Shown here piece by piece: positions 1,659 through 36,682 of a stretch of DNA of 36,682 bases (positions are counted from its first letter, which is position 1; each line of letters opens with the position of its first letter). The stretch lies in the IMG/VR virus record IMGVR_UViG_3300021437_000056, positions 1-36,682 of that record. One strand, 5' to 3'. Below the pieces are notes generated by a model. That model was not told where the DNA came from and did no database searches. It was given only the letters and a program-made list of their open reading frames with translations. The stretch comes from a virus. A program made the translations under genes and the position numbers.

Positions 1659-3311
1659 ATGGCTCAGCCTCAAGCAGTCCCGAACCGCCGTGGATGGCAG
1701 CGCATCCTGGATCCCTGGACGTGGTTCAGCTTCAAGGGTCCGTGGCAGAGCCCGTCCACGGCCAAGCCTGTGCTGGTCCCGTCGTGGATCGGCCACGAGC
1801 ACCTCCGGCGCCTGTGGGCGTACTCGACGCTGGAGGCGTACTTCCGCAACGCTGCCCGGCTGTGGCTCAACGACGAGGCCAGCGAAGAAGACCGCAAAGC
1901 CCGGCGTGAGTACGGCGACCCCATGCTGCTGGTGGAGCAGACGCGAGCCTCGCTCTACGGCGACAAGATCAGTCTGATCGTCAAGGGCGCCGTCGAAGGC
2001 GACAGCACCACCGACTCCGCATCCGTCATCCAGGAGTTCCTGGAGACGTGGTGGGAGAAGGAGGTCATGGACCAGAAGCTCATCGAGACGGACAAGAACG
2101 CCATCAAGCTCGGCGACGGCGTCATGTCGCTGGAGTGGAACGAGAAGAAGCAGCGACCCTGTGTCTACTCGTACAACCCCGGCTTCTACTTCCCCGTCCT
2201 GGACGAGACGGGCGAGGATCGCGACTACCCCCGTCGCGTCCACATCGCCTGGGAGTACGAGAAGACGCTGCCCGACGGCAACCGAGAGGTCTGGGTGCGT
2301 CGGAAGACGTGGTGGTTGGCGGAGTACGACACGACCTCTGGCGTGCGTGTGCCGTACAGCGACGAGCCCGTGTTCGACACGTGCATGTTCCAGGACGGCT
2401 CATGGTCGCTGGAGGACATGGGCAAAGACGTCGACAACTTCGACGACGCCAAGGCCGTGTGGCACACGGAGCCCACCGACCTCGAGATCGACTTCATCCC
2501 GGTGCTCCATATCCCGAACACGGTGAGCCTGGAGGACCACTACGGCACGTCCATCCTCGCGAACGTGCTGCAGCTCCTGGACGACATCGTCGCCGTGGAC
2601 ACCGACCTGCAGGCCGCCAGCGCTACCACGGGCAGCCCGCCCATCGCCGTGAGCGGCGCCTCCGTCGACAACGACCACAAGGTCTACGGCCCCGGCACCG
2701 TGCTGAGCGTCGGCGACGGCAGCGCCACCGTCATCGACACGAGCGGCGGCCTGGGAGCGCTGCTGACGCTGCAGGACGCTCAGCTCAAGCGCCTCAGCGT
2801 GAACGTGCGCATCCCCGAGGCCCTGCTGGGACGTGTGAAGCCGAACGAGGTGCCGTCAGGCATCGCTCTGGCGCTCGGCTTCACGCCGCACATCAGCCTG
2901 ATCCAGGAGATGCGCCTGGTCCGCCGCCAGAAGCACGGGCTCCTGCTGAAGTGGGTGCAGCGCATGATGCTCATCCACGGGCAGATCCCGGAAGTGCTGG
3001 AGGCCAACATCGTCTTCGGCAGCTATCTGCCGGCAGACAAGCAGGAGACGATGACGCTCATCGTCGGCCTGTACACCATCAAGGCCATCAGCTTGGAGAC
3101 CTGCATCCAGATGATGGTGCAGGCTGGCTTCCCCATCGAGGACGTCCAGCTCGAGATCCAGCGCATCCAGCAGGAGGACATCAGTTCGGCCAGCGCCCTG
3201 GTGTCGCTCACGGGCGATGTCAATGCTGGTAGGGAGCGGTTGGGCCTCCCGCCGGACCCGACCATGGCCAACCAGAATCTCAACGACCCAGCCAACCCTT
3301 CTGGTCAGTGA
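1659..3311 (+). CDS. Portal protein
   Basis: This 550-residue protein directly follows the terminase (2-nt gap, AGAAGG ribosome site at 1648-1653). Position, length and composition fit a phage portal, the dodecameric ring at the capsid vertex through which DNA passes. Typical features are the N-terminal region with conserved tyrosines and tryptophans, a central stretch with repeated acidic, Asp-rich segments, and the helical region LLTLQDAQLKRLSVNVRIPE (370s) followed by SGIALALGF, which resembles the wing/crown region of SPP1-type portals. The C-terminal tail is rich in Asn, Pro and Gly. The assignment rests on context plus these family-like segments. Confidence 0.88.
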   Translation: MAQPQAVPNRRGWQRILDPWTWFSFKGPWQSPSTAKPVLVPSWIGHEHLRRLWAYSTLEAYFRNAARLWLNDEASEEDRKARREYGDPMLLVEQTRASLYGDKISLIVKGAVEGDSTTDSASVIQEFLETWWEKEVMDQKLIETDKNAIKLGDGVMSLEWNEKKQRPCVYSYNPGFYFPVLDETGEDRDYPRRVHIAWEYEKTLPDGNREVWVRRKTWWLAEYDTTSGVRVPYSDEPVFDTCMFQDGSWSLEDMGKDVDNFDDAKAVWHTEPTDLEIDFIPVLHIPNTVSLEDHYGTSILANVLQLLDDIVAVDTDLQAASATTGSPPIAVSGASVDNDHKVYGPGTVLSVGDGSATVIDTSGGLGALLTLQDAQLKRLSVNVRIPEALLGRVKPNEVPSGIALALGFTPHISLIQEMRLVRRQKHGLLLKWVQRMMLIHGQIPEVLEANIVFGSYLPADKQETMTLIVGLYTIKAISLETCIQMMVQAGFPIEDVQLEIQRIQQEDISSASALVSLTGDVNAGRERLGLPPDPTMANQNLNDPANPSGQ

Positions 3312-4556: not shown

Positions 4557-5597
4557 ATGGCACAGCAGCTGGTCTACGACCTCATCGAGCCGTCCCTCCT
4601 CATCAACTACGTGCGTGCGTACGACAACGAGGTCCTCTACAACAACTTCACGCTGGAGCGGTACCTCCCGAACACGCTCACGGAGGACCTGGAGTACCGG
4701 ATCCGCTCCGGCACCTGGCAGGACGTGGACACCGCCCTGTACCGGGCGTGGGACACCCCGGCTCCCTTCACCAAGCGGCAGGGCATGTCCCGGTTCCGTG
4801 GCGAGCTGGCTCCGGTCAGCCGGCAGATCGCCCTCAGCGAGGAGGAGTTCCTCCGCCTGCGGGCCCTGCAGTCGAACGGCCGCCAGGCCGATCTCGTCAA
4901 CGCCATCTACTCGGACGCCGAGCGCATGGTCCGTTCCGTCCAGGCCCGAATCGAGCTGGCCCGTGGTCAGCTCCTCGTGACGGGCACCTTCGCCCTGAAC
5001 GAGAACGGCCTGAACGTCACGGCCGACTTCGGCATGCCGGGCACCCACAAGCCCACGGCGGCGACGCTGTGGACCAACCCGGCTGCCGACATCCTCGGCG
5101 ACCTCCTGACGTGGACGCAGCTCTACGTGGATGACACCGGCACCGTGCCCGGCGTCATGCTCATGAGCCGCACCGTGCTGGGGTACATGTACCTCAACAC
5201 GGCCATGCGCCAGGCGGCCGCCTTCGCCGGCACCACGCCCTCCCGCATCAACAACGAGACGATCGACGCCATCTTCGCCGCGAACGGTCTTCCCCCGATC
5301 GAGATCTACGACACGAAGGTCCGTGTGAACGGCACCAACACGTCGGTGATCGGCACCAACAAGGTGCTGCTCCTCCCCTCGCCGGGTGCGGAGCCGATGG
5401 GCAACACGTTCTACGGCGTCACGGCCGAGGCGCTCAAGTTCCAGTCGAAGGGCTACATCACCCAGGAGGAGATGCCCGGTATCGTGGCCTGCATCCACGA
5501 GACCGAGTCGCCGATCCAGACCTTCACCCTCGCGACGGCGGTGGCGGTCCCGGCCCTCCCGAACCCCAAGCTCGTCGTGGCTGCGACGGTCGCCTGA
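4557..5597 (+). CDS. Major capsid protein (gpE-like, HK97 fold)
   Basis: This 346-residue protein matches the lambda gpE type of major capsid protein in length, position and features. It has an N-terminal arm (LERYLPNTL), segments with the rhythm of the HK97 fold (RELARGQLLVTGTFALNENG), and a C-terminal part with GNTFYGVTAEALKF and IQTFTLATAVAVPALPNPKLVV typical of the P-domain end and A-domain loop. The ribosome site is AAGGGG (4541 onward) before the ATG. No N-terminal delta domain or protease is fused, so the separate scaffold presumably serves assembly. Confidence 0.93.
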   Translation: MAQQLVYDLIEPSLLINYVRAYDNEVLYNNFTLERYLPNTLTEDLEYRIRSGTWQDVDTALYRAWDTPAPFTKRQGMSRFRGELAPVSRQIALSEEEFLRLRALQSNGRQADLVNAIYSDAERMVRSVQARIELARGQLLVTGTFALNENGLNVTADFGMPGTHKPTAATLWTNPAADILGDLLTWTQLYVDDTGTVPGVMLMSRTVLGYMYLNTAMRQAAAFAGTTPSRINNETIDAIFAANGLPPIEIYDTKVRVNGTNTSVIGTNKVLLLPSPGAEPMGNTFYGVTAEALKFQSKGYITQEEMPGIVACIHETESPIQTFTLATAVAVPALPNPKLVVAATVA

Positions 5598-6650: not shown

Positions 6651-9600
6651 ATGCCGTATCTGGGCTCGTCTTCGGACGAGATCGCCGGTGCGCTCCGGAA
6701 GCTCGGGGGAGACCTGGAGCGCATCGGCTTCCAGATGAAGAAGGCGAACACTCCTGCCGAGGTGGAGGCGCTGCGAGCGCAGATGCACCTCCGCATCAAG
6801 GGCACGATGGACGACGCCCGCAACTGGGCGAAAGACGATCTCAGGGCAGAGTACAACAAGGCGTACGACCGAGGTGCAGGTGCCAAGATCACCAAGCCCA
6901 AGGCAGACCAGCAAGCCGGGTACGTACTGCGCCAGAAGGCGCTCGCCTCTGTCAATCGGATGGACAAGGAAGCCAAGTCCTGGGCAGATGACAAGGCGAA
7001 GGCCACGCTCGGCGCCAAGGGCGCTCAGATCGCCAAGGATCGGGCGGAGACACTGCGCAAGCAGATCCCCGGCCTGACCGGCGCTGACAAGGCGAAGGCC
7101 ATCAGCCAGCTCGAGAAGCTCAACAGTCAGGCGGAGCATCTCACCAAGGCAATCCCGTCCACGGGCGACAAGCCCACGATCGGATACTTCAAGAAGGGCC
7201 GTGGGAACAGAGATGTTTACTCACGAGAGCCGTGGGACCACTACGTCAACATGGCCACGGGGACTATCCACCAACGAGTCACCAATGTGGGACTTCTCCG
7301 TGGCGCCCGCAAGAACAGACCGTCGGCGTACTTCATCGTCTCTGACGGCGATGATTGCGGATGGACTCAACACAGCGACCCGGAGAAGGCGAACGGGAAG
7401 GTGGTCACCGCCGAGGAAGCGCTCAAGTACCCAATCGCTCACCCCAACTGCACTCGCAGCTTTGACGAGACAGACAAGAAGGGCGCCCGTGCTGCCAAGG
7501 CAGCGAAGGCAGCTCGCGACAAGAAGATCGCCCAGGCGGTAGCGGCCAAGCTGGCCGAGGACAAGAAGGCCAAGGCCAAGAAAGCGGCCAAGGCTGCCGT
7601 CACCGTGGCGAAGGTGGGCACGGCTCTGTACAACTCGCAGGCGCTCCGTATCATCGCCGGAGGCCTGTACGACAACCGTGCGGACCTGCCAGCAGTGCTG
7701 CAGCCAGTCGTGGCGAAGTGGGCGAAGTTCTCCACCAAGGAGGAGTTCGCTATATCCCAAGTTGGATCTAAAATTTCGAAGGAAATTGCGGTCGACAACC
7801 TCCGCAATCGAGTCATGGCGGAGACGAACGCCTCTCTCAAGGCTCGAGCCCTCGAGAACGCTGCAGATGACGCCATCGTCAACATCGGTGACACCAGCGC
7901 CCGCATCCTCGGCCTCACCAAGGAGACGGAGTACGGCAAGGTCATCTCTGCGCTGGATGACTACACAGACTACGTAGCGCACGCTCGCGCCTCTGCTCTG
8001 CCGTGGTACGAGAACCTCAAGGACGCTGGCATCCGCACAGAAGCTCGAGCTGCCCTGGACGGGGTGCGTGCCGTCGGGGCCAGCGACTACCTGGGGTCGT
8101 TGAAGCCGACCGGCCCCTTCGACGCTGTGGGGCAGTCCATCGGTGTGCTGCGCAAGATCATCGAGGAAGATCCGCATCGCCTTGCCAAGGCAGCTGTTGG
8201 TGACATCGCGCAGAGCGTCGATCCGTTGTCATGGGCTCGCGTCAACATGGGCAAGTTCAGGTTCATGGTTGGGACGCACAGCGCTGAGCGGCGCCGCTTC
8301 GCCGAGACGCTGTTCGAGCAAGTGAGTGACAGTCGTCGCTACGCACCGGAGGATGTCGCCTACTTCCGTGACGTGCTCGGCAAGACGATCGATGGTTCGG
8401 AGCGCCTCACCAAGCAAGACCTCGTCGACCTGCTCACGCCTCGTGTGACGTACAACCCCACTGGCGGTCTGTTCAGCGCTACCGTCGGGCTGGAGCGTGG
8501 CAACCTGGTGCCGGTGTTCCGCATGTACCCGCCCGGCGCCATCGGGAAGATCTTCAGCCTGGACAGCCGCCTGCGGGCTGGAGCCTTCACTCGCATCATG
8601 CAAGACATCCAGCGTGGTGAGCTGGGGGCGGGTCTGCTGAAGGAGAACGGCGCTCGTGGTCTGGACGATCTCACGGAGTACCTGAAGACCATCCGTGACG
8701 AGGAGACCATCACCAACATCAACATCTGGCGCAACGGGCCGGTGGTCGGCAACGTGCGACTCTGGGGCAACACCGTCGACAGCGTCGGCCTGAAGATCAA
8801 GCCAGACCAGGAGTGGTTCCGAGCCACTGCCCGCTGGTACCGGTTCGAAGAGCGGTTCATGGGCTACGACGCCGATGGCAACCCCATGTTCAGCGACAGC
8901 AAGCTCGGCTCTCTGTTCAGCAACGTCGCCTTCCTGCCGAACCGGGCCGGGTCGCTGGTCGTCAACGCTCGCGACAAGGTCGTTCAGGACATCATCGTCG
9001 CCTTCCACCGCTGGAGCGGCAACGCTCTCGAGGTCGCACGGCAGCTGGGAATCCCGTACCGCACCGTGCACGAGGCGCTCGACGCCTGGCGGGCAGGAGC
9101 GTCGGAGCAGGTGAGCCGTGCGTTCGACAGCGCTGCGGAGCGGGCCAAGTACCTGGCTCGCGTCATGGACCGTGTTGCTGGTGACGACCGCTCTCGCATC
9201 CACGGGTTCCGCGATCTCCTGGACTATACGAAGAACGTGTGGAACGACCCGGAGACGTTCAGCTATCAGGAGAGCGTCTACAAGTCGGCCGCAACCAAGA
9301 ACCTAACCGGCTTCTCGGGCGCCGAGAGCATCGCCAAGGGCGACCTCAACTTCTTCACGACGGTGTTCGAGCATGAGTTCCCTGGCGTGCGAGTGCCGGG
9401 CATCGCTATCACCGATGACGCTGCTATGGGCGATGGTGCGCTCATGCAGTACCGGTACAGCACAGGCAACATCGAGAGCTACTCCAACGCCTTCACGGAT
9501 GCAGGATGGAAGACGCTCGAGTCCATGCACCGCAAGATGCGTAGCATCGGGCACCTGAACCCCAACGCAACAGGTCGCATGGCGAAGCTGTGGCACGAGT

Positions 9601-9977
9601 CCACGCACCACCTCCTGAACCAGCTCAGCCCGACAGAGTACCGCAGCCTGTGGAAGCGCATCACTGCCCTGGAGGAACTGCCCATCAAGGGCCTGGACCA
9701 GAGCGTCGGCATCGAGGGCACGGCTCGCCTCACCCGCCTCAACCTCGCCAAGGACCACGAGGGCATCAACCGCATCGTCAACGAGTGGATCAAGATCAAC
9801 CCTCGTCGCAAGCAGCAGTCCACCATGGAGCAGTTCATCACGCAGAAGTTCGGGCGGTACGCAGCCACCGACCCGGAGGAATGGCTGAGTGAGATGGTGG
9901 CTGAGCGCATGACGGCGCTGCACCCTGACCCCTTGACCATCAAGGTCTTCGAGTTCATCAAGGATGCCCTGCGATGA
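6651..9977 (+). CDS. MuF-like minor head protein with C-terminal HExxH metallopeptidase-like region
   Basis: This 1108-residue protein is far longer than a plain minor head protein. Residues 1-190 are helical, Lys/Ala-rich. Residues about 190-275 resemble the conserved part of phage minor head (MuF-type) proteins: WDHYVNMATGT, then DGDDCGWTQHSDPEKANGK, then YPIAHPNCTRSF. A long region of unknown fold follows, with a helix-turn-helix-like patch NALEVARQLGIPYRTVHEAL (about 790-810). Near the end is HESTH (982-986), a perfect HExxH zinc motif, and about 90 residues later EEWLSEMVAE (1076-1085), like the distal Glu motif EEFFAE of lethal-factor-type peptidases. It may be carried in the capsid and injected. 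A run of AT-rich codons sits at 7744-7793. The start follows the previous stop by 3 nt. Confidence 0.75.
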   Translation: MPYLGSSSDEIAGALRKLGGDLERIGFQMKKANTPAEVEALRAQMHLRIKGTMDDARNWAKDDLRAEYNKAYDRGAGAKITKPKADQQAGYVLRQKALASVNRMDKEAKSWADDKAKATLGAKGAQIAKDRAETLRKQIPGLTGADKAKAISQLEKLNSQAEHLTKAIPSTGDKPTIGYFKKGRGNRDVYSREPWDHYVNMATGTIHQRVTNVGLLRGARKNRPSAYFIVSDGDDCGWTQHSDPEKANGKVVTAEEALKYPIAHPNCTRSFDETDKKGARAAKAAKAARDKKIAQAVAAKLAEDKKAKAKKAAKAAVTVAKVGTALYNSQALRIIAGGLYDNRADLPAVLQPVVAKWAKFSTKEEFAISQVGSKISKEIAVDNLRNRVMAETNASLKARALENAADDAIVNIGDTSARILGLTKETEYGKVISALDDYTDYVAHARASALPWYENLKDAGIRTEARAALDGVRAVGASDYLGSLKPTGPFDAVGQSIGVLRKIIEEDPHRLAKAAVGDIAQSVDPLSWARVNMGKFRFMVGTHSAERRRFAETLFEQVSDSRRYAPEDVAYFRDVLGKTIDGSERLTKQDLVDLLTPRVTYNPTGGLFSATVGLERGNLVPVFRMYPPGAIGKIFSLDSRLRAGAFTRIMQDIQRGELGAGLLKENGARGLDDLTEYLKTIRDEETITNINIWRNGPVVGNVRLWGNTVDSVGLKIKPDQEWFRATARWYRFEERFMGYDADGNPMFSDSKLGSLFSNVAFLPNRAGSLVVNARDKVVQDIIVAFHRWSGNALEVARQLGIPYRTVHEALDAWRAGASEQVSRAFDSAAERAKYLARVMDRVAGDDRSRIHGFRDLLDYTKNVWNDPETFSYQESVYKSAATKNLTGFSGAESIAKGDLNFFTTVFEHEFPGVRVPGIAITDDAAMGDGALMQYRYSTGNIESYSNAFTDAGWKTLESMHRKMRSIGHLNPNATGRMAKLWHESTHHLLNQLSPTEYRSLWKRITALEELPIKGLDQSVGIEGTARLTRLNLAKDHEGINRIVNEWIKINPRRKQQSTMEQFITQKFGRYAATDPEEWLSEMVAERMTALHPDPLTIKVFEFIKDALR

Positions 9978-10195
9978 CCATGCGACCGCCCTGGCTGTGC
10001 GACAGCTGCCAGCGCTACACTGGCTCGAACACCTGCGACGCCTTCCCGCAGGGTATCCCGGCAGCTGTTCTTGCTGGTGCGCCACACTTCGACCCCTTGC
10101 CGGGCGACAATGAGCTACAGTACCTGTCAGTGGACGGCGACCCTGGGCTCGCCATCTGGCTGGCCTACTGGATGCAAGTGGACAAGGAAGAGTGA
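9974..10195 (+). CDS. Small conserved phage protein with Cys motif
   Basis: This 73-residue protein starts at ATG 9974, overlapping the previous stop by 4 nt (ATGA). Its N-terminus reads WLCDSCQRYTG then TCDAFPQGIPAAVL, with a CxxC pair and a third Cys, and FPxGIP is a motif I recognise from short uncharacterised proteins beside phage head genes. It ends with an acidic tail. The cysteines may bind a metal. Its function is unknown; position suggests a link to head or neck assembly. Confidence 0.7.
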   Translation: MTMRPPWLCDSCQRYTGSNTCDAFPQGIPAAVLAGAPHFDPLPGDNELQYLSVDGDPGLAIWLAYWMQVDKEE

Positions 10196-10593
10196 TGACC
10201 CTCAACCTGGGCGGTGCTCAGCGAGCTGTCGAGAAGCTCATGGAGTCGGAAGTGATCATCCAGCACCCCGGCCGCGAGGTGCTGAACCCTGTCGACGGTA
10301 CGGTCAGCCAGACGATGACCACGGTCTACGACGGCAAGGCCATCGTCGCCACAGACACCACACCTGAGTTCTACCGGCCGGACAGCGGCGAGCGAGGGCG
10401 GGTCTACTACACGGTCTTCCTGCCGAAGGACGAGGCCGTCACGGTCACGGCCTACGACATCATCACGATCACAGTCAACGACCGCCAGCCCAACATGGTC
10501 GGCAAGCGCCTCACCGCCATCGGGCCGGTGGCCGGTACGTTCGAGGTCGCCTACCGCATCCGTGCCTGGCTCGACGAGGAGAGCGGCGAGTGA
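10195..10593 (+). CDS. Head-tail stopper candidate (DUF6093-like)
   Basis: This 132-residue protein has an N-terminal helix AQRAVEKLMESEVIIQHPG, followed by beta strands (GKAIVATDTTPEF, VYYTVFLPKDEAVT, YDIITITVNDRQPNMVGKRLTAIGP). This layout fits small beta-barrel neck or stopper proteins; the opening looks like the DUF6093 family of actinophage proteins, a memory-based match. I choose ATG 10195 (TGATG overlap with the previous stop) over GTG 10192, because AAGGAAG at 10184-10190 is better spaced to 10195. It is followed by the completion and terminator genes, as in a typical neck module. Confidence 0.72.
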   Translation: MTLNLGGAQRAVEKLMESEVIIQHPGREVLNPVDGTVSQTMTTVYDGKAIVATDTTPEFYRPDSGERGRVYYTVFLPKDEAVTVTAYDIITITVNDRQPNMVGKRLTAIGPVAGTFEVAYRIRAWLDEESGE

Positions 10594-27482: not shown

Positions 27483-28095
27483 CGGGGATCTCCAGTCGCT
27501 CGGGGAAGTTGTAGGTCGCGCTCACCACGTTGAACTTGTTGGCGATGATGCGCTGCGCCTCGTCGTACGTGAAGCCCAGGGCCGCGAAGTTCACGATGAC
27601 GTAGGCGATGATGTCCGCCAGCTCGGTGGCAGCTGCCACCTTGAGGCGGTACTCGCTGCGGGTGTCGGGCTCACCCGTGGCCGTGTCGATGGAGTCGGCG
27701 CCCGTCTGGATGCGGCGGAGCTTCTTGACGGCGTTCAGGTACTCGCCCGTCTCGCCGCCGAGGGCCAGGCCCCAGTCGCTCAGCGTCCAGTTGTTGATGT
27801 CGCCCTCATGCCAGCGCTCGGAGCGCCGGAGGTGCATCTCCCAGGCGTTGAACGTGATGACGTCGTAGGGCCGCTGCGCCTTGATGACGGTTGCCACTGG
27901 TGCCAGGCGCAGGTCCGTCTCGTAGGCGCCAGCCACACCTCCAGAGTTCGGCCCCTCGACAGCCTCCATGTAGTACCGGAACACATCGCCGCTGCGAGTG
28001 AAGGACTTGATGATCCAGGTCGTGGCGTACTCGACGGCGACGGACTTGTGCTGCACTCGGTCGCCGATCTTGAACTTGCCTCCGGTGTCAGTCAT
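27472..28095 (-). CDS. MazG-like nucleotide pyrophosphohydrolase with extra N-terminal domain
   Basis: This 207-residue protein carries the all-alpha NTP pyrophosphatase motifs: ExxE at 115-118 (GGETGEYLNAVKKL) and ExxD at 158-161 (ELADIIAYV), followed by FNVVSATYNFPERL. The family hydrolyses NTPs or dNTPs to monophosphates and pyrophosphate, cleaning or shifting the nucleotide pool. Residues 1-65 form a separate beta-rich domain (GKFKIGDRVQHKSVAVEYAT), like an SH3/KOW fold, which is unusual. ATG 28095 overlaps the thyX stop by 8 nt; GTG 28113 is an alternative with no better ribosome site. With ThyX and the nucleotidase it forms a nucleotide-supply group. Confidence 0.8.
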   Translation of the reverse strand: MTDTGGKFKIGDRVQHKSVAVEYATTWIIKSFTRSGDVFRYYMEAVEGPNSGGVAGAYETDLRLAPVATVIKAQRPYDVITFNAWEMHLRRSERWHEGDINNWTLSDWGLALGGETGEYLNAVKKLRRIQTGADSIDTATGEPDTRSEYRLKVAAATELADIIAYVIVNFAALGFTYDEAQRIIANKFNVVSATYNFPERLEIPDEG

Positions 28096-29050
28096 TGGAG
28101 GACCGGCCTTCACGGGCAGCCGTCGGGTCCATGAGCCACTCGGCCGGGAAGATGCCGGGCAAGCCGTCGCGAGACGAGTCGTCGACCCGAGCGTCCCAGG
28201 CCTCGCTCGGCACGCCCGCCTGGCCGAGATCGGTGACCTTCTGGCGGATGGAGCAGTGACGGTCGAAGTTGGCGAGGAACTCGCACTTGCCTGTCTTGTA
28301 GCAGATCGGGCGGAACAGGCGGCTGCTCGCCAGCAGCTCGAACTGCCAGCGGTCCTGCGGCATGACGGACGGGTGCTCGGCGCCGAAGCGGCGGATGGCG
28401 TTCAGGATCGCGACCCACACGGCCCGCCACTCGAACTGCGCCTGGGTGCAGAGCCGGTTGCCAGCGTGCTCCTGCAGGTTGCGCAGGTCCGTAGCGTAGT
28501 GCAGGCGGGTGGCGACGCCGTGCGGCGTCAGAGCGCGAGCGTCCTCCGCCGGGACACCGGCAGCGATCAGCTTGTTGTACGCCTCCTCGATGGCGCCGAT
28601 GGCGTCCCAGAAGTCGTCGCGGACCTGCTCGCTGCCGTTGGCGATGGACGGCGGCACGCTGACCCGGTCCATGAGGTCGCCAGTGACGGCGAAGCGCAGC
28701 GACTCCTGGGCGTACACGGCAGTGCGCTGACGGACCATCTGGTGCGTGAAGGAGCGGGTCACGCCCTCCAGCAGGAAGTGGAAGTTCACGAACTCCAGCG
28801 GCGCCTGGAGATGAGTGTGCTGCACCTGCTCGAAGAACTCACGCCGCTCGTCGTCCGTCACGTCCTGCAGGTTGTAGACGACCTCGCCCTTGTACATCTT
28901 GCAGGCCGCAGCGATGGCGCCCAACGGGTCGGGGTTCATCGCCAGCAGCGTGACCGACGGCACGATGTTCCCGTCGGCGTCTCGGCCCGCCCGCATCGGC
29001 TCTGCCGTGAACATGGCAGCGTCGGCGAAGCGTTGGATGTCCTTGGTCAT
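28088..29050 (-). CDS. thyX: Flavin-dependent thymidylate synthase
   Basis: This 320-residue protein makes dTMP from dUMP using FAD, NADPH and methylene-tetrahydrofolate. The ThyX signature RHRx7S appears as RQR at 107-109 with S117 (RQRTAVYAQES), the His replaced by Gln. Nearby are FVNFHFLLEGVTRSFTHQMV and, later, LHYATDLRNLQEHAGNRL, which fits the substrate region. ATG 29050 has GAGGAG upstream and overlaps the preceding stop by 4 nt. The C-terminal 80 residues hold extra Cys and His residues (CYKTGKCEF, NFDRHCS), a possible metal site not usual in the core family. The length exceeds the 210-260 residues of most ThyX proteins. Confidence 0.93.
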   Translation of the reverse strand: MTKDIQRFADAAMFTAEPMRAGRDADGNIVPSVTLLAMNPDPLGAIAAACKMYKGEVVYNLQDVTDDERREFFEQVQHTHLQAPLEFVNFHFLLEGVTRSFTHQMVRQRTAVYAQESLRFAVTGDLMDRVSVPPSIANGSEQVRDDFWDAIGAIEEAYNKLIAAGVPAEDARALTPHGVATRLHYATDLRNLQEHAGNRLCTQAQFEWRAVWVAILNAIRRFGAEHPSVMPQDRWQFELLASSRLFRPICYKTGKCEFLANFDRHCSIRQKVTDLGQAGVPSEAWDARVDDSSRDGLPGIFPAEWLMDPTAAREGRSSND

Positions 29051-29289
29051 GCTTCTATCTCCTCTGTGGGTATGTACTGGATAGGGTAGTTGGCTCTGTG
29101 GGCATCGTGCTTGGTACGCCAGCACCAGCAAGATGACCATAGCTGCCCGGGGAAGTTCTCGCAGTCCCTATGACGCCCGGCGATGCACTCGGCGCACCAC
29201 AGGCTTTCCCTCTGGCTGGGACTTAACCTTGTCTGGGTCGATGACCCACATGTCTGTGACCTTGATGGCCCGCCTGCTCTGGAACCCAT
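29047..29289 (-). CDS. Small Cys-rich protein (CxxC...CxC type), start uncertain
   Basis: The frame ends at TGA 29047-29049, overlapping the thyX ATG by 4 nt. The C-terminal half has WCAECIAGRHRDCENF then SSCWCWRTKHDAH, which I recognise as the CxxCxxGxHxxC...CxC pattern of small actinophage zinc proteins. The only ATG in the frame, at 29289, lies 122 nt inside dnaE; residues 1-30 read like out-of-frame sequence. A non-standard CTG start after GAGGGAAAG near 29198 is possible. The reported 80 residues are therefore an upper limit. Confidence 0.55.
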   Translation of the reverse strand: MGSRAGGPSRSQTCGSSTQTRLSPSQRESLWCAECIAGRHRDCENFPGQLWSSCWCWRTKHDAHRANYPIQYIPTEEIEA

Positions 29290-32200
29290 ACTTGACTCCC
29301 TCGAAGATCACGATGTCGTGGTCGAGCTGGATGTCCCACACAGCCTTCTTCATGCTGGGGTACTTCCAGCGATCGATGGTGCAGGTGAGCAGCTCGGTGT
29401 CGTCTGCCCCGACGAGGATGACCCACTCGTTCAGATGCGGGTCGCGCACGGTCTCCGGGTCCAGGGGCTTGCCGGTGCGGGAGAAGTTCAGCTCGAACAG
29501 CTCACGAAGGTTGATGTGCCGAATGACGCCTGCCCAGACAACCTGGGTGTTGTGGTCCTCGCGGCTGTAGGGGACTTCCTCGCTGGTGTGCGTGGGCACG
29601 GGGATGCGCCCTCGGAAGTTGCGACGGATGTAGTTGATGACCTTGTCCGTGTCGCGCTTGAGCTTGAGAACCTCGAATGGATCCTCCTGGGCGCAGAACT
29701 CCTTGATGGTGGAGATCTTCTTGTCTCCGATGCCCTTGATGCTGCGCAGGCTGTCCCAGTTCCAGGTCATGGCGTCCGCAGCGTCTCGAGCCTCCACGAT
29801 CTTCTTGGCCGTCTCCTCGCCGATGCCCTTGATCTGCGTGAGACCGGGCAGGACGGACTGCGGAGTGGACTTGTCGTAGGTCCAGGTGACGCCGCTACGG
29901 CTGGCGCTAGGCGGCTCGATGGTGATGCCGTGGCGCATGGCGTCTCGCAGTAGCTCGCGCTGCTTGTCGTACTTGCGCAGGGACGCGACATAGAAGGCAG
30001 TGGGGTGGTGCTGCTTCATGTACATGGTCCACCACGCCAGCATGCCGTAGCTAGTGCTGTGGGCTACGTTGAAGGCGTACGAGCCTGCCGTGATGCACTG
30101 GCCCCAGATGGCGCGAGCGGTCTCCTCGTCCATGCCGTGCCTCTGGGCACCGGCCCAGAACTTGTCCCACTGGCGGGCGAACTCCTGCTCTCCGATCTTG
30201 CGACTGATGATCTTGCGAATGTAAGATGCAGCCGTCCAGTCGAAGTCGCCGATCTCGCGGACAATACGAAGGATCTGCTCTTGGTACACGATCTGGTAGT
30301 GGGTATCTCCGCAGATTGCATCGAGCATTGGATGGAGACGACGGGGCTCCTTACGTCCACGCTTGACGTCGACGTACTCTGCGGTTGCGTTGTTGTGTAG
30401 AGGGCCAGGACGAGCCAGTGCGTTGACGTCCCGAACCTCAATGAAGTTGTCCGGCTTGAGTTCGCCGTTGACAGAGCGCATAGCTCTGCCGTCAAACTGG
30501 AAGACGCCCACGACATCGTTCGCCTGAAAGCCCTTGATCGTCGTGGGGTCATCGAGAGGAATCTCATACAGCCACTCCAGAGGCTTGTCGATGAAGTCCA
30601 GCATGATGCGCAACGCTGCCAGGGTGTTGAGGCCCAGAGCGTCGATCTTGAGGATGTTGAGGTACTCGCTGTCGTACTTGTCCGTGCTGATGACCTGCCG
30701 CAGCTGGCCTGCCACGACGCGTTCGTAGATAGCGACCACGTCGGTCAGCGGACCGTTGGCGATCACGAGCCCGGCAGCGTGCACGCCCATGCCACGCACC
30801 TGACCTTCCAGGCTGGTAGCCTTGAGAAGGTCGGGGTGATCCTTCACTGCCGCAGCGGCAGCCTCGAACTGGTCGATGGTGTCGAGGATGGTGGCGCTGG
30901 CCCGCAGGTCGCCAGACGAGCGCTCGATGAGTGCGTCCTTGAGCTGCTCCGCTGCCCACTTGGGCACACGGTACACGCGAGCTACGTCGTCGATCGAGTT
31001 CTTCGCCTTGTACTGAGTGAACGACCCGATGCTTCCCGTCCTCTCTCTTCCATACTTCGCTGCCGCATACTCAAAGACTTCTCCGCGTCGCTCATCATCG
31101 AAGTCAAGGTCGATATCGGGGAGGTCAGCACGGGAAAGGTCGATGAAGCGCTCGAACAGCATTGACGGGAACGCGAGAGGGTTGACCTCAGTGATGCGCA
31201 GCAGCCAACATACAAGGCTCGCAGCAGCAGAACCTCGACCGGGTCCAACAGGGATGCCACGGTCTTTGGCGAACTTGACGATGTCCGAGACGACGAGGAA
31301 GTAGTCAACGAAGTCTTTCTGCTCGATGATAGACATCTCGTAGGCGAGACGGTCCTTGTAACGCTTGACGTCCTTGAACTTGGCGACACCACGGTACTTC
31401 CAGCCGTCCTTCAGCCAGGAGCGCCAGACGTCGTCGGTGTCCTTGTACCCGTAGGGCACCGGGAAGCGCAGTCGCTCCAGCTTGGGCATGGTGACGGTGC
31501 ACATCTGGCCGATGGTCTCGGTGTTGAGGATGGCCCGTATGGCTGCCTGGCGACTGAGGCCGCAGTGCATGAGGCGCTGCAGCATGACCTTGTCGTTGAT
31601 GGGCGGGCTCAGCGGTACGTTGTAGCCCCACGACCGAGCCTGCTCCTCCAGGGTCTGCTTGTTGCCACCCCGGACGTTGTGCAGGATCTGCTGCATCTCG
31701 TTCTCGGAGGGCTTGGTGTAGTGGACGTCGCCCGTGGCCACCAGCTCGATGCCAAGCTCGTTGCTGAGGCGCTCGTACGCCTCGTTGATCTTGACTACCG
31801 TCGGGAGTTCAGGAAATGCCTGTACCTCAAGGAAGTAACGGTCTCCGAACTCGCGCTTGAAGGCGGCGGCGACCCTTCGGGCACGTTGATAGGAGGCGGC
31901 TCCATCCGGGACATTCTTACCTCCCACCAGAGAGGTTGCAAGGAGGCTGCCAGTGCAACCAGACAGAATGACCAGACCATCCTTGTGCCTCTTGATGTCG
32001 TCGGGGCTGACCGTGGGCTCGTAGTAGAACTGCTGCCAGCCCAACGTCACGAGCTTGAGCAGGTTGTTGTAGCCGACCTGGTTCTCTGCCAGGACGGTGA
32101 GGTGGTTCTTGCGCTGAGTGCGGGTCGCCTCGGTCACGCCGCCTGTGTACAGCTCGCATCCGAAGATGGGCTTGACGCCCTGCTCTAGGGCGGCCTGCTC

Positions 32201-32362
32201 CAACTTGACGTGGGAGCTGATGTTGCCGTGCTCAGTGAGCGCCAGCGTGCCCATGTTCAGCTCGGTGGCCCGCCGCACATGTGACTCCGGCAGCCCGTAC
32301 CCGTCCAGATAGCTGAACGTCGAGTGATGGTGCAGGCTCACGTAGCGCATAGGCTTGGTCAC
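29168..32362 (-). CDS. dnaE: DNA polymerase III alpha subunit-like replicative polymerase
   Basis: This 1064-residue protein copies phage DNA. The N-terminal PHP domain begins LHHHSTFSYLDGYG (10-23). The polymerase core has VGPGRGSAAASLVCWL, then PDIDLDFDDERR (near 415), which holds the catalytic aspartates, and TGSIGSFTQYKAKNSIDDVA. Downstream are helix-hairpin-helix segments (LTQIKGIGEETAKKI, LRSIKGIGDKKI) and an OB-like end (VVWAGVIRHINL). It is shorter than E. coli DnaE. GTG 32362 overlaps the upstream stop (GTGA) and follows GGGGTGAG; ATG 32350 is an alternative. An exonuclease partner is not visible in the window; the PHP domain may proofread. Confidence 0.93.
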   Translation of the reverse strand: MTKPMRYVSLHHHSTFSYLDGYGLPESHVRRATELNMGTLALTEHGNISSHVKLEQAALEQGVKPIFGCELYTGGVTEATRTQRKNHLTVLAENQVGYNNLLKLVTLGWQQFYYEPTVSPDDIKRHKDGLVILSGCTGSLLATSLVGGKNVPDGAASYQRARRVAAAFKREFGDRYFLEVQAFPELPTVVKINEAYERLSNELGIELVATGDVHYTKPSENEMQQILHNVRGGNKQTLEEQARSWGYNVPLSPPINDKVMLQRLMHCGLSRQAAIRAILNTETIGQMCTVTMPKLERLRFPVPYGYKDTDDVWRSWLKDGWKYRGVAKFKDVKRYKDRLAYEMSIIEQKDFVDYFLVVSDIVKFAKDRGIPVGPGRGSAAASLVCWLLRITEVNPLAFPSMLFERFIDLSRADLPDIDLDFDDERRGEVFEYAAAKYGRERTGSIGSFTQYKAKNSIDDVARVYRVPKWAAEQLKDALIERSSGDLRASATILDTIDQFEAAAAAVKDHPDLLKATSLEGQVRGMGVHAAGLVIANGPLTDVVAIYERVVAGQLRQVISTDKYDSEYLNILKIDALGLNTLAALRIMLDFIDKPLEWLYEIPLDDPTTIKGFQANDVVGVFQFDGRAMRSVNGELKPDNFIEVRDVNALARPGPLHNNATAEYVDVKRGRKEPRRLHPMLDAICGDTHYQIVYQEQILRIVREIGDFDWTAASYIRKIISRKIGEQEFARQWDKFWAGAQRHGMDEETARAIWGQCITAGSYAFNVAHSTSYGMLAWWTMYMKQHHPTAFYVASLRKYDKQRELLRDAMRHGITIEPPSASRSGVTWTYDKSTPQSVLPGLTQIKGIGEETAKKIVEARDAADAMTWNWDSLRSIKGIGDKKISTIKEFCAQEDPFEVLKLKRDTDKVINYIRRNFRGRIPVPTHTSEEVPYSREDHNTQVVWAGVIRHINLRELFELNFSRTGKPLDPETVRDPHLNEWVILVGADDTELLTCTIDRWKYPSMKKAVWDIQLDHDIVIFEGVKYGFQSRRAIKVTDMWVIDPDKVKSQPEGKPVVRRVHRRAS

Positions 32363-33947: not shown

Positions 33948-34711
33948 CAGCCCTGGCCCTGCAGGATGGCCATTGCCTCCGTGAAGGCGTGGTCCACGAG
34001 GACGCCTTTCTGCCACTTGCCGTACCTCCCAACGAGATGGATGCCTTCCGGAGCCGGAGCGTCGGTGCTGACCGGCTTGGTCAGGACGGTGCGCAAGACG
34101 TTGTCCGTGAAGTCGCCGGGGTACTCGTACGACGCATGGCCCCACAGGCAGCTGTAGCGATACCACGGCACACCCCGCTCGCCGGAGTAGATGATGATGT
34201 GCACGCCAGCCTGAGGCTTGCCCGGAACGATGACGCACTCCTCGCTGCGCCACTCGTAGTCCTCGTGGTTGGGAGTGATGTGCTGCCGAGGGATGGTGCT
34301 GAACTTGAAGTCGAAGCCGCTCTGACGCTCCGTGTCGCCCGGCTTGACCCGCACCCGCACGAGGTGCTTGGCGTAGCGCTGCCACAGTTCGTAGTACACG
34401 CTCCGCAGCGGCCAGCCGTACACCACGTCCGGGAACTTGGACCAGCTGGTCTGCTTGGGGTCGAAGTCGGCGCCGTAGATCTTGCGAGAGTACTCCGCCT
34501 CGCTGCCGTAGCGAACGTAGAGGATCTTGTGAGAGTTCTTGGGCGTGACCAGCTCGGGGATCTCCTTGTGGAGGTACTGAGCGCCACCGATCTTGCTGGG
34601 TGTCGTCTCGCTCGTGACGATGCACGGCTCGTATCCCATGAGCGTGGCAGCATGAGCCACCAGCAGTCCGGCTGGGCCACTGCCCAGCACGAGCACCTTG
34701 CGCTTCTTCAT
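33947..34711 (-). CDS. Compact FAD-dependent oxidoreductase
   Basis: This 254-residue protein has an N-terminal dinucleotide-binding motif GSGPAG (10-15) in KKRKVLVLGSGPAGLLVAHA, and a C-terminal flavin segment GIHLVGRYGKWQKGVLVDHA, similar to the FAD-binding end of many flavoproteins. The middle (WSKFPDVVYGWPLRSVYYEL, then RGVPWYRYSCLWGHASYEYP) is aromatic-rich and may form the substrate pocket. It is short; no second NAD(P)H-binding motif is visible. GGAGG lies 7 nt before ATG 34711, which overlaps the helicase stop by 4 nt. Its substrate is unknown. Placement among nucleotide and replication genes allows a role in nucleotide or base chemistry; this is inference. Confidence 0.75.
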   Translation of the reverse strand: MKKRKVLVLGSGPAGLLVAHAATLMGYEPCIVTSETTPSKIGGAQYLHKEIPELVTPKNSHKILYVRYGSEAEYSRKIYGADFDPKQTSWSKFPDVVYGWPLRSVYYELWQRYAKHLVRVRVKPGDTERQSGFDFKFSTIPRQHITPNHEDYEWRSEECVIVPGKPQAGVHIIIYSGERGVPWYRYSCLWGHASYEYPGDFTDNVLRTVLTKPVSTDAPAPEGIHLVGRYGKWQKGVLVDHAFTEAMAILQGQG

Positions 34712-36682
34712 GTGTTATCCTCCATGGTATCGATATCGATGTCTCGCAGCGCCCGGATGATGCCGGGCTCCGGACGGTACAAGCCACCGTCACGGCGCAC
34801 GATACTGCGCGAGATCAGCTCGTGCAAGATGGCTTGCATGTTCTCTGCGGACAGGTTCATCCCGTCCATCATGTCGTTGCGCTTGAAGCTCTGGTTGTCC
34901 CGGAGGAACCGCACAAGGCCGGGCTTATTGAGGATCCACTCCAGGGAGTCGTCCAACGTTACCGTAGCACGCTCAATCTCACTGCGCCGGGCACGGCTCA
35001 GGGCAGCGTACCCGAAGGCCGTCATACCGTAGATCTGGTCGAGGAACCGCACTGCTGCCGTGACATGGCGGGGCTCCACCACGATGGCCTGGCACGTCTC
35101 GTCCGTGCTGAACGTACGGGCCGCCACCGCGATAGCCCAGCGGGCGATCTTGAAGCGCACGTTGGCAGCCTGCACGAGCGGCGGACTCTCCACGTAGCGA
35201 TCGCCCATGTCCACGGCAGCCTCGTAGATCTTGGCCTCTGCCTGCTCCGTGATGATGACGTCCTCCGGGCGCCGGGTCCACGCCCACCGCAGCAGCGTCT
35301 GGTACGCCGTACGGCTGTGCAGGGGCTCGCTGAGGTCACGTATGGCGGTGTTGATGGCGGCGCTGCTTACAGCACCTGACTCCACGGCCATGGCGCCGTC
35401 GAAGCGGGCGACGTCCTCTGCGTTGCCGACGAGAGGCTGAATGGCCAGCGCCCCGTACGCAAACTCAGCGAGGGTGCTGTTGCGAGGGTTGGCGAGCCAC
35501 AGCAGTCGTGTGCGAGCTGGAGCACGCTCTGTTCTGATCTTGTTGAGCTCTGCCACGCCAGAAGATCGGATAGCAGACATCTGGGCAAAGTGCGATGGTT
35601 CAAGGCCAGAAGCTTCATCAAGCACGACAAGGCGTCGGTCATTGATCGGGACGGCGCCCCACTTGATTGTCCACTTCTGATCATCGATGCGGTCGAGACC
35701 GCCCATGATGCCTGCGAAGGTTGCTGTCTCACAGCTGATGATCTCCCCGAGGTCGTACCAGTCGACCAGGCGACCGGCAGCTTCGCTCTTGCCTGTGCGG
35801 GTGTCACCGACGATCATTACGTCGAGCCACCCCTTGCTGTAGGTGCCGCCGAGGTAGAAGCCGATGGCCGAGTGGAACACCAGGTCCATCAGCATGTGCA
35901 TCTCTGGGCGCTGGTAGATGCGGGTGACGTGAGAGCTGAGGTCGTCCGCGATAATGCGCAGAGCCTTGAGCGGGTCGCCCTTGCACTTGAACACCGACAT
36001 CTCTGCGATGGTGTTGGGCGTGACGCTGAAGCTGTCCAGCGTGTTGACCGGCGTGACGGACGACCACACTTGGAACTCGTTGTTCTGAGTCTTAGGTGAC
36101 GGCCGAATGGTACCGGTCATGTCCACGGTGGTGTTGGGCTCCAGGTCGTGCCTGCCCACGACGACGATGCGCCGATGAGTGAAGTCGGCGCTCTTGCCCG
36201 TGTCTCGCAGCTCGATGGACGGGCGAGCGAACACTTCCTCGACCGTGCGCTCTACGATGCGGGTGGTTTCGAACTTCGGGCACTTGACGATGCCCATGTG
36301 CTGCCGCAGTAGCTCCTGCAGCTGCTGGTCCGTGCTGCCCATCATAGCGAGCAGGATGGGGTCGTGCGGCGGGATCTCGAGCGAGGCATGCCCGTTGTGC
36401 ACAACCTTCATGATGCAGTTCTCGCACTTGGACCCGTTGTCCAGGCCGCATGTGAAGTCCACACGCTCGGGCAGTACGTAGCCGGGGGACTTCTTACCCG
36501 TGATCGTGACCTGCATCGTCATGGGGCGCCCAGCGTTGCGAGCGTCGAACGAGTCGAGCACGCTCACACCCACTAGCTCTGGCCTGGCCTCGTCCGTCTC
36601 CGTGGTCGCAGCGGACGACAGCACCTTGGCCTGACGGACCAGGGCCTTGAACTCCTTCGACGTGTTGCCGTCCAGGAAGAAA
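34708..36682 (-). CDS. MCM-like AAA+ helicase (5' end beyond the window)
   Basis: The frame stays open to the right edge, so the N-terminus is missing; about 657 residues are visible. It has a zinc-like cluster CGLDNGSKCENC, an OB-like region (RRIVVVGRHDLEPNTTVDMT), Walker A VGDTRTGKSEAAGRL (about 35774-35818), Walker B LVVLDEASG (about 35607-35630) and a sensor-like LWLANPRNS, followed by the helical lid and a C-terminal winged-helix-like end. This is the MCM layout: an archaeal/eukaryotic-type hexameric DNA helicase also found in some phages. It probably unwinds DNA ahead of the DnaE-type polymerase. An in-frame GTG at 36624 exists, but coding sequence continues upstream of it (FFLDGNTSKEFKALVRQAK). 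Confidence 0.88.
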   Translation of the reverse strand, partial: FFLDGNTSKEFKALVRQAKVLSSAATTETDEARPELVGVSVLDSFDARNAGRPMTMQVTITGKKSPGYVLPERVDFTCGLDNGSKCENCIMKVVHNGHASLEIPPHDPILLAMMGSTDQQLQELLRQHMGIVKCPKFETTRIVERTVEEVFARPSIELRDTGKSADFTHRRIVVVGRHDLEPNTTVDMTGTIRPSPKTQNNEFQVWSSVTPVNTLDSFSVTPNTIAEMSVFKCKGDPLKALRIIADDLSSHVTRIYQRPEMHMLMDLVFHSAIGFYLGGTYSKGWLDVMIVGDTRTGKSEAAGRLVDWYDLGEIISCETATFAGIMGGLDRIDDQKWTIKWGAVPINDRRLVVLDEASGLEPSHFAQMSAIRSSGVAELNKIRTERAPARTRLLWLANPRNSTLAEFAYGALAIQPLVGNAEDVARFDGAMAVESGAVSSAAINTAIRDLSEPLHSRTAYQTLLRWAWTRRPEDVIITEQAEAKIYEAAVDMGDRYVESPPLVQAANVRFKIARWAIAVAARTFSTDETCQAIVVEPRHVTAAVRFLDQIYGMTAFGYAALSRARRSEIERATVTLDDSLEWILNKPGLVRFLRDNQSFKRNDMMDGMNLSAENMQAILHELISRSIVRRDGGLYRPEPGIIRALRDIDIDTMEDNT

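Follow-up and report, generated by a model that had tools for sequence, protein, structure and literature searches.

A predicted zinc metallopeptidase tail on a MuF-type minor head protein of a ZL12-like actinobacteriophage and the small gene that overlaps it

The window analysed here is a 36.7-kb IMG/VR virus record taken at its full length. It carries a head operon of the actinobacteriophage type in which the genes for the large terminase and an SPP1-type portal are followed by those for a scaffold and the major capsid protein, two small genes, the gene for an 1108-aa protein, connector genes and a tape measure (Table 1). The portal is closest to that of Streptomyces phage ZL12 (35 % identity), and ZL12-type relatives occur as plasmids. 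No integrase was seen among the window ORFs scanned, the record possibly being a fragment. Computational analysis of the 1108-aa protein recognised two domains, an N-terminal head domain and a C-terminal predicted peptidase. Between them lie a basic linker, which resembles the basic tails ending several short relatives, and a middle region (aa 331-886) which gave no significant match in family or database searches. This middle region includes an HTH-like stretch, ALEVARQLGIPYRTVHEALDAW (aa 779-816, 8985-9098, +), with weak matches to HTH-type Pfam families (E 0.007-0.09). A 73-aa ORF, absent from both the account and the ORF list of the earlier note on this DNA, overlaps the end of the gene.

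Table 1 Features of the head operon and of the 1108-aa protein in the window
Feature	Position	Strand	Basis
Portal protein (SPP1 gp6-like)	1659..3311	+	PF05133, E 8.1e-9
Major capsid protein	4557..5597	+	PF03864, E 1.1e-28
1108-aa MuF-type minor head protein with predicted zinc metallopeptidase tail	6651..9977	+	ORF; 3′ of scaffold and major capsid genes
MuF-like (Phage_min_cap2-type) core, aa 190-275	7218..7475	+	PHROG 37388, alignment with relatives
Ala/Lys-rich basic linker, aa 274-330	7470..7640	+	Composition 67 % A/K/R/Q
Middle region without recognised relatives, aa 331-886	7641..9308	+	Family and database searches
Predicted zinc metallopeptidase (gluzincin, lethal-factor-like), aa 887-1108	9309..9974	+	Profile of 69 phage C-termini
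HESTH, aa 982-986: putative zinc ligands H982 and H986, putative general base E983	9594..9608	+	Invariant in aligned members
Y1070 ... E1077 (putative third zinc ligand) ... E1081	9858..9893	+	Invariant in 26 sequences
73-aa small protein, CxxC...CxAFPxGIP family	9974..10195	+	ATGA, four-base overlap with the 1108-aa gene
Head-closure-region gene, next in operon after the small ORF	10192..10593	+	PHROG 13779, E 1.3e-10

A minor head protein region had been proposed in the earlier note for residues 190-275, and this is borne out by a match of aa 192-283 to PHROG 37388 (E 2.9e-15), a MuF-type region, and by homologues encoded at the equivalent place in the gene order. Alignment with these relatives gives a core motif of DGxxCGWxxHxDP...HPNC; relatives of the head domain match PF06152, a family to which the 1108-aa protein itself gave no match. 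Using tblastn we identified head-domain homologues on ZL12 and on many Streptomyces plasmids, where the gene again occupies the corresponding place behind that for the capsid. The ZL12 and plasmid proteins are only about 280 aa in length and end after the head domain. The extension beyond the head domain in the window is about 830 aa and carries a metallopeptidase profile match. Searches with the portal and with the head domain brought up related IMG/VR phages, in which the protein is either short or extended by a tail of between 230 and 1239 residues. Some homologous head proteins at the same locus have no tail, while others end in ADP-ribosyltransferases (L009, 3.1e-12; L092, 2.5e-20; L094, 1.4e-30; also L100) or in other zincins (L012, with a Pfam ATLF match at 1.6e-4; L102; L106; L098/L118). 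Since relatives of the head domain carry differing tails or none, the tail is exchangeable cargo on a shared head module, and interchangeable enzyme tails of this sort are typical of delivered effectors. A 1300-aa related head protein (L118, 5392-9291) pairs a zincin with a PI3/PI4-kinase-like domain behind it (4.9e-8), which is an uncommon combination of effectors. In a MuF-type protein of 1479 aa (L089, 205-4641) the tail is 1239 aa long and ends in HEHGH and a PREIW motif; it showed no significant similarity to the tail of the 1108-aa protein.

The C-terminal tail had been attributed to a lethal-factor-type metallopeptidase on the basis of an HESTH motif and a Glu motif downstream of it. 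The HESTH is exactly where it had been placed (aa 982-986) and is the sole HExxH in the protein, and EEWLSEMVAE is present at aa 1076-1085, with EEWLSE running from base 9876, 94 residues downstream. Y1070 sits seven residues before E1077. In residue shuffles of the 1108-aa protein HExxH alone arose in 1.9 %, and HExxH plus Y-x6-E-x3-E at this spacing, a pattern chosen after looking, in 0.025 %. Related loci supplied 3195 unselected frames of 200 aa or more; the combined motif occurred twice among these, both times in MuF proteins with zincin tails, and 0 times in reversed or shuffled frames. When Y-x3-[ND]PEE-x-[LF]-[AS]-E was searched without HExxH in all viral contigs, 16 contigs were returned. 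In 14 of them the same protein carries HExxH 31-116 residues before the pattern; the other two represent one unrelated family. A looser pattern without the Tyr, [ND]PEEW[LF]xE, gave two chance matches in 395 genomes.

With the protein searched alone the tail gave no convincing Pfam, NCBIfam or PDB match, and the 1108-aa protein has no match to Pfam PF07737 (ATLF), which relatives match, but below the cut-off. Pfam SAM_2 and START matches over the peptidase region (E 0.001-0.05) overlap the HExxH helix and were judged spurious. A first zincin HMM, whose members had been chosen with the third-ligand motif, gave E 2.1e-5 but was matched by 64 of 1000 motif-preserving shuffles, and because 6.4 % of such shuffles scored as well it was discounted as circular. 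We utilized a second HMM built from 69 phage C-termini chosen by HExxH and a neighbouring small ORF, the third-ligand motif playing no part in the choice. Its sole match among 457 window frames is the 1108-aa protein (aa 908-1107, E 7.8e-12, 40.4 bits), a score reached by 0 of 1000 motif-preserving shuffles, the best of which gave 17.7 bits. Among 26 aligned members no variation is seen at H982, E983, H986, Y1070, E1077 or E1081. The earlier note had left the third ligand between E1077 and E1081; alignment with relatives points to E1077, E1081 being likewise invariant. The expectation that homologues keep HExxH holds for 26 of 26 aligned similar tails, though these were picked with HExxH, and could not be carried over to a close homologue of this tail, as none turned up for the whole tail or the middle region in searches that covered phages and plasmids, contigs of viruses and genomes, and 395 class-level genomes, and in which only matches to the head domain were convincing. 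Weak genome matches from the tail and whole-protein searches, at E about 1e-3, look like chance. A profile of the tail family (A7) has lethal factor (2.7e-6) and Pro-Pro endopeptidases as its nearest solved proteins. The profile match, the invariant ligands and these solved relatives uphold the attribution, and to judge from its sequence the tail of the 1108-aa protein is almost certainly a zinc metallopeptidase domain, one that should be named lethal-factor-like rather than a PF07737 member.

Single-sequence AlphaFold prediction of aa 841-1108 gave a pLDDT of 38.6. With an 11-row alignment AlphaFold returned a helix, three strands, the HExxH helix and the Glu helix, which is zincin topology, at a mean pLDDT of 58.6 with the motif helices at about 78-88; as the alignment rows are all zincins this model is supportive, not independent. 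A Foldseek search of the tail model against PDB and viral models found nothing significant, the insignificant viral matches including a phage protein annotated as an M34 endopeptidase and head-region proteins of Cantare and GMA6. Gp11 of Brevibacterium phage Cantare (L164, 7662-10784) and Orf14 of Gordonia phage GMA6 (L165, 9974-13003), both annotated as hypothetical and the latter also with an HNH domain, are actinophage head-region proteins of ~1000 aa with a C-terminal zincin and the same HExxH ... Y-x6-E-x3-E pattern. The second HMM matches them at 47.6 and 59.3 bits, respectively, although they differ from the window protein in their N-terminal parts and come from larger phage genomes (83-91 kb). 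Like lethal-factor-type (ATLF, PF07737) and Pro-Pro endopeptidase gluzincins, the predicted peptidase combines HExxH with a helical Glu ligand further along the chain, while its delivery, context and presumably its target are unlike theirs.

The 73-aa protein encoded by the overlapping ORF shows the pattern CxxC...CxAFPxGIP...H..P.PGDN and gave no match to Pfam. We identified the CxAFPxGIP pattern in at least 119 viral contigs; two members of the family that were scanned gave no Pfam match, and a text search of the literature for the motif found no paper. An HMM of 69 members, with the window ORF left out, matches this ORF at E 7.4e-13 and 49 bits; the motif used to collect the family came from the window, but 49 bits is more than that motif by itself should yield. 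Spacing between the small ORF and the gene directly upstream is mostly a 4-base overlap or a gap of less than 10 bases. That upstream gene encodes a C-terminal HExxH in 45 of 62 cases from the first 80 loci; for other frames the figure is 14 of 1008 (Fisher p 1e-52). Among the matches listed, from about 100 IMG/VR contigs, 69 of 99 upstream genes encode an HExxH tail, 57 of these with the Y-x6-E-x3-[EDQ] geometry, while 12 upstream tails are JAB-like and 5 ART-like, these classes having been assigned by simple patterns. Domain scans of 45 upstream proteins identified Phage_Mu_F in 30, together with several ART families and one Zeta_toxin. At a locus found independently via the zincin motif (L156) the small ORF starts 4 bases after the peptidase gene. 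Phage and plasmid loci whose MuF proteins are short gave no match to the small-ORF family at E below 0.1, and the small ORF was also absent from those relatives in the window's group of phages that do have a tail (L012, L009, L102). On an Oscillatoria plasmid a member of the small CxxC family (L166, 2983-3168) starts 4 bp after the gene for a ~2470-aa DUF4114 protein, the C-terminus of which is ADP-ribosyltransferase-like by eye; the partner may thus extend beyond phages.

We regard the 73-aa protein as a candidate partner of the predicted peptidase, be it as immunity protein, chaperone or adaptor. Because the family follows zincin, ADP-ribosyltransferase, JAB-like and zeta-toxin tails, we doubt that it confers immunity on a one-to-one basis, and with one small family behind at least four unrelated enzyme types general escort or silencing would be at least as likely as cognate immunity. 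It is conceivable, and we suggest it tentatively, that the CxxC...CxAFPxGIP protein serves injected MuF-borne enzymes in common, by loading or silencing them, and does not act as cognate immunity.

The locus has much in common with the MuF polymorphic toxins, in which an N-terminal MuF-type head domain is followed by a long C-terminal extension (of at least 100 aa in theirs) ending in an enzymatic domain, and in which a small ORF (<150 aa; here 73 aa) lies directly downstream. Jamet et al. (2017) found a metallopeptidase in 20 % of 191 MuF toxins and small ORFs behind 89.4 % of MuF toxin genes compared with 25.5 % of short muf genes, and proposed immunity for them (PMC5576092). A typical muf gene lies directly behind the portal gene (PMC5576092), whereas the window gene is 3′ of the scaffold and major capsid genes; the same gene order is present in ZL12-type phages, which makes the non-portal-adjacent position a trait of this phage group. 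The MuF polymorphic toxins also differ from the window protein in the ~550-aa middle that separates its head and enzyme domains. Our claim is that the protein works like a MuF polymorphic toxin, formal membership not being insisted on. It likewise resembles the polyvalent proteins of Iyer et al. (2017), being a large multidomain phage protein with a zincin, encoded in the virion gene block; MuF and zincin are hub domains among those proteins, and zincins occur there in 12 clades (PMC5512222). ZL12 gp60 and its homologues on Streptomyces phage-plasmids share a homologous head domain and a syntenic head operon with the window but, unlike it, the tail and the small CxxC ORF were not found in them.

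We infer, with moderate confidence, that the 1108-aa protein is packaged at the portal and, once ejected along with the DNA, cleaves a host protein, while in the producing cell the small protein would protect or escort it. The first ~275 residues would act as a MuF-type head-assembly domain placing a few copies at the portal and, after the basic linker and a middle of ~550 residues, the last ~220 residues would form the zinc metallopeptidase, with zinc bound by H982, H986 and E1077, E983 serving as the base and Y1070 and E1081 completing the site. Packaged with the head and ejected with the DNA, the protein would cleave its host target early in infection, favouring the phage, and the overlapping 73-aa CxxC protein, made in fixed coupling, may keep the peptidase harmless or escort it in the producing cell.

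Alternatively the substrate could be the polypeptide itself or adjacent head proteins, cut in the procapsid, within the virion or directly upon ejection so as to free the head domain from the middle cargo; the peptidase would then not be host-directed. Self-processing of this kind was proposed by Iyer et al. (2017) for the zincins of polyvalent proteins, citing cleavage of P1 DdrB (PMC5512222), and the large middle region between the head domain and the peptidase would suit cargo release. However, relatives swap the tail for unrelated ADP-ribosyltransferases, from which it follows that the head domain needs no peptidase, and cargo-less relatives manage without any tail; we consider self-processing the chief rival, though an unlikely one. 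It is less probable still, and by some way, that the tail is an inactive remnant which has kept the zincin motifs and lost its activity, or that it is a structural plug only. The tail and middle are divergent and orphan, HESTH has Thr for the usual Gly (HExGH) and Ser replaces the usual Ala before E1081, yet all six invariant site residues are intact, although decay should have cost the domain some of them, and the helix that follows the Glu motif at the C-terminus has been retained. A chance motif in a non-enzymatic head-protein extension would fit the want of a convincing database match for the protein alone and the occurrence of HExxH alone in 1.9 % of shuffles, but the second HMM's score, out of reach of every motif-preserving shuffle, the specificity of the motif in unselected frames and the coupling to a small ORF whose family follows HExxH tails make it exceedingly improbable.

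MuF-metallopeptidase fusions have already been described in 20 % of MuF toxins, so the window protein belongs to a known kind. Notable are its divergent middle, the partner-gene rule and the fact that it occurs in a ZL12-like group of actinophages, the described relatives of which are without tails. The ZL12-group actinobacteriophages join the phages with exchangeable enzyme tails on a head protein. The rule itself, a C-terminal HExxH ... Y-x6-E-x2-[AS]-E often followed by an overlapping CxxC...CxAFPxGIP ORF, can pick out presumably injected peptidases where Pfam fails. Should the small protein control or escort injected phage enzymes, a two-gene construct would make it possible to test how harm from such an enzyme is prevented before delivery.

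Outside the head operon we identified, on the opposite strand, a DnaE-type DNA polymerase III alpha subunit (29168-32362, -; PF07733, 2.8e-69) adjoined by a thymidylate-synthase-like gene (28088-29140, -). A 638-aa protein (34708-36624, -) matches PHROG 18685 (2.9e-72), with a weak MCM P-loop match (8.9e-4), and is possibly a replicative helicase or primase.
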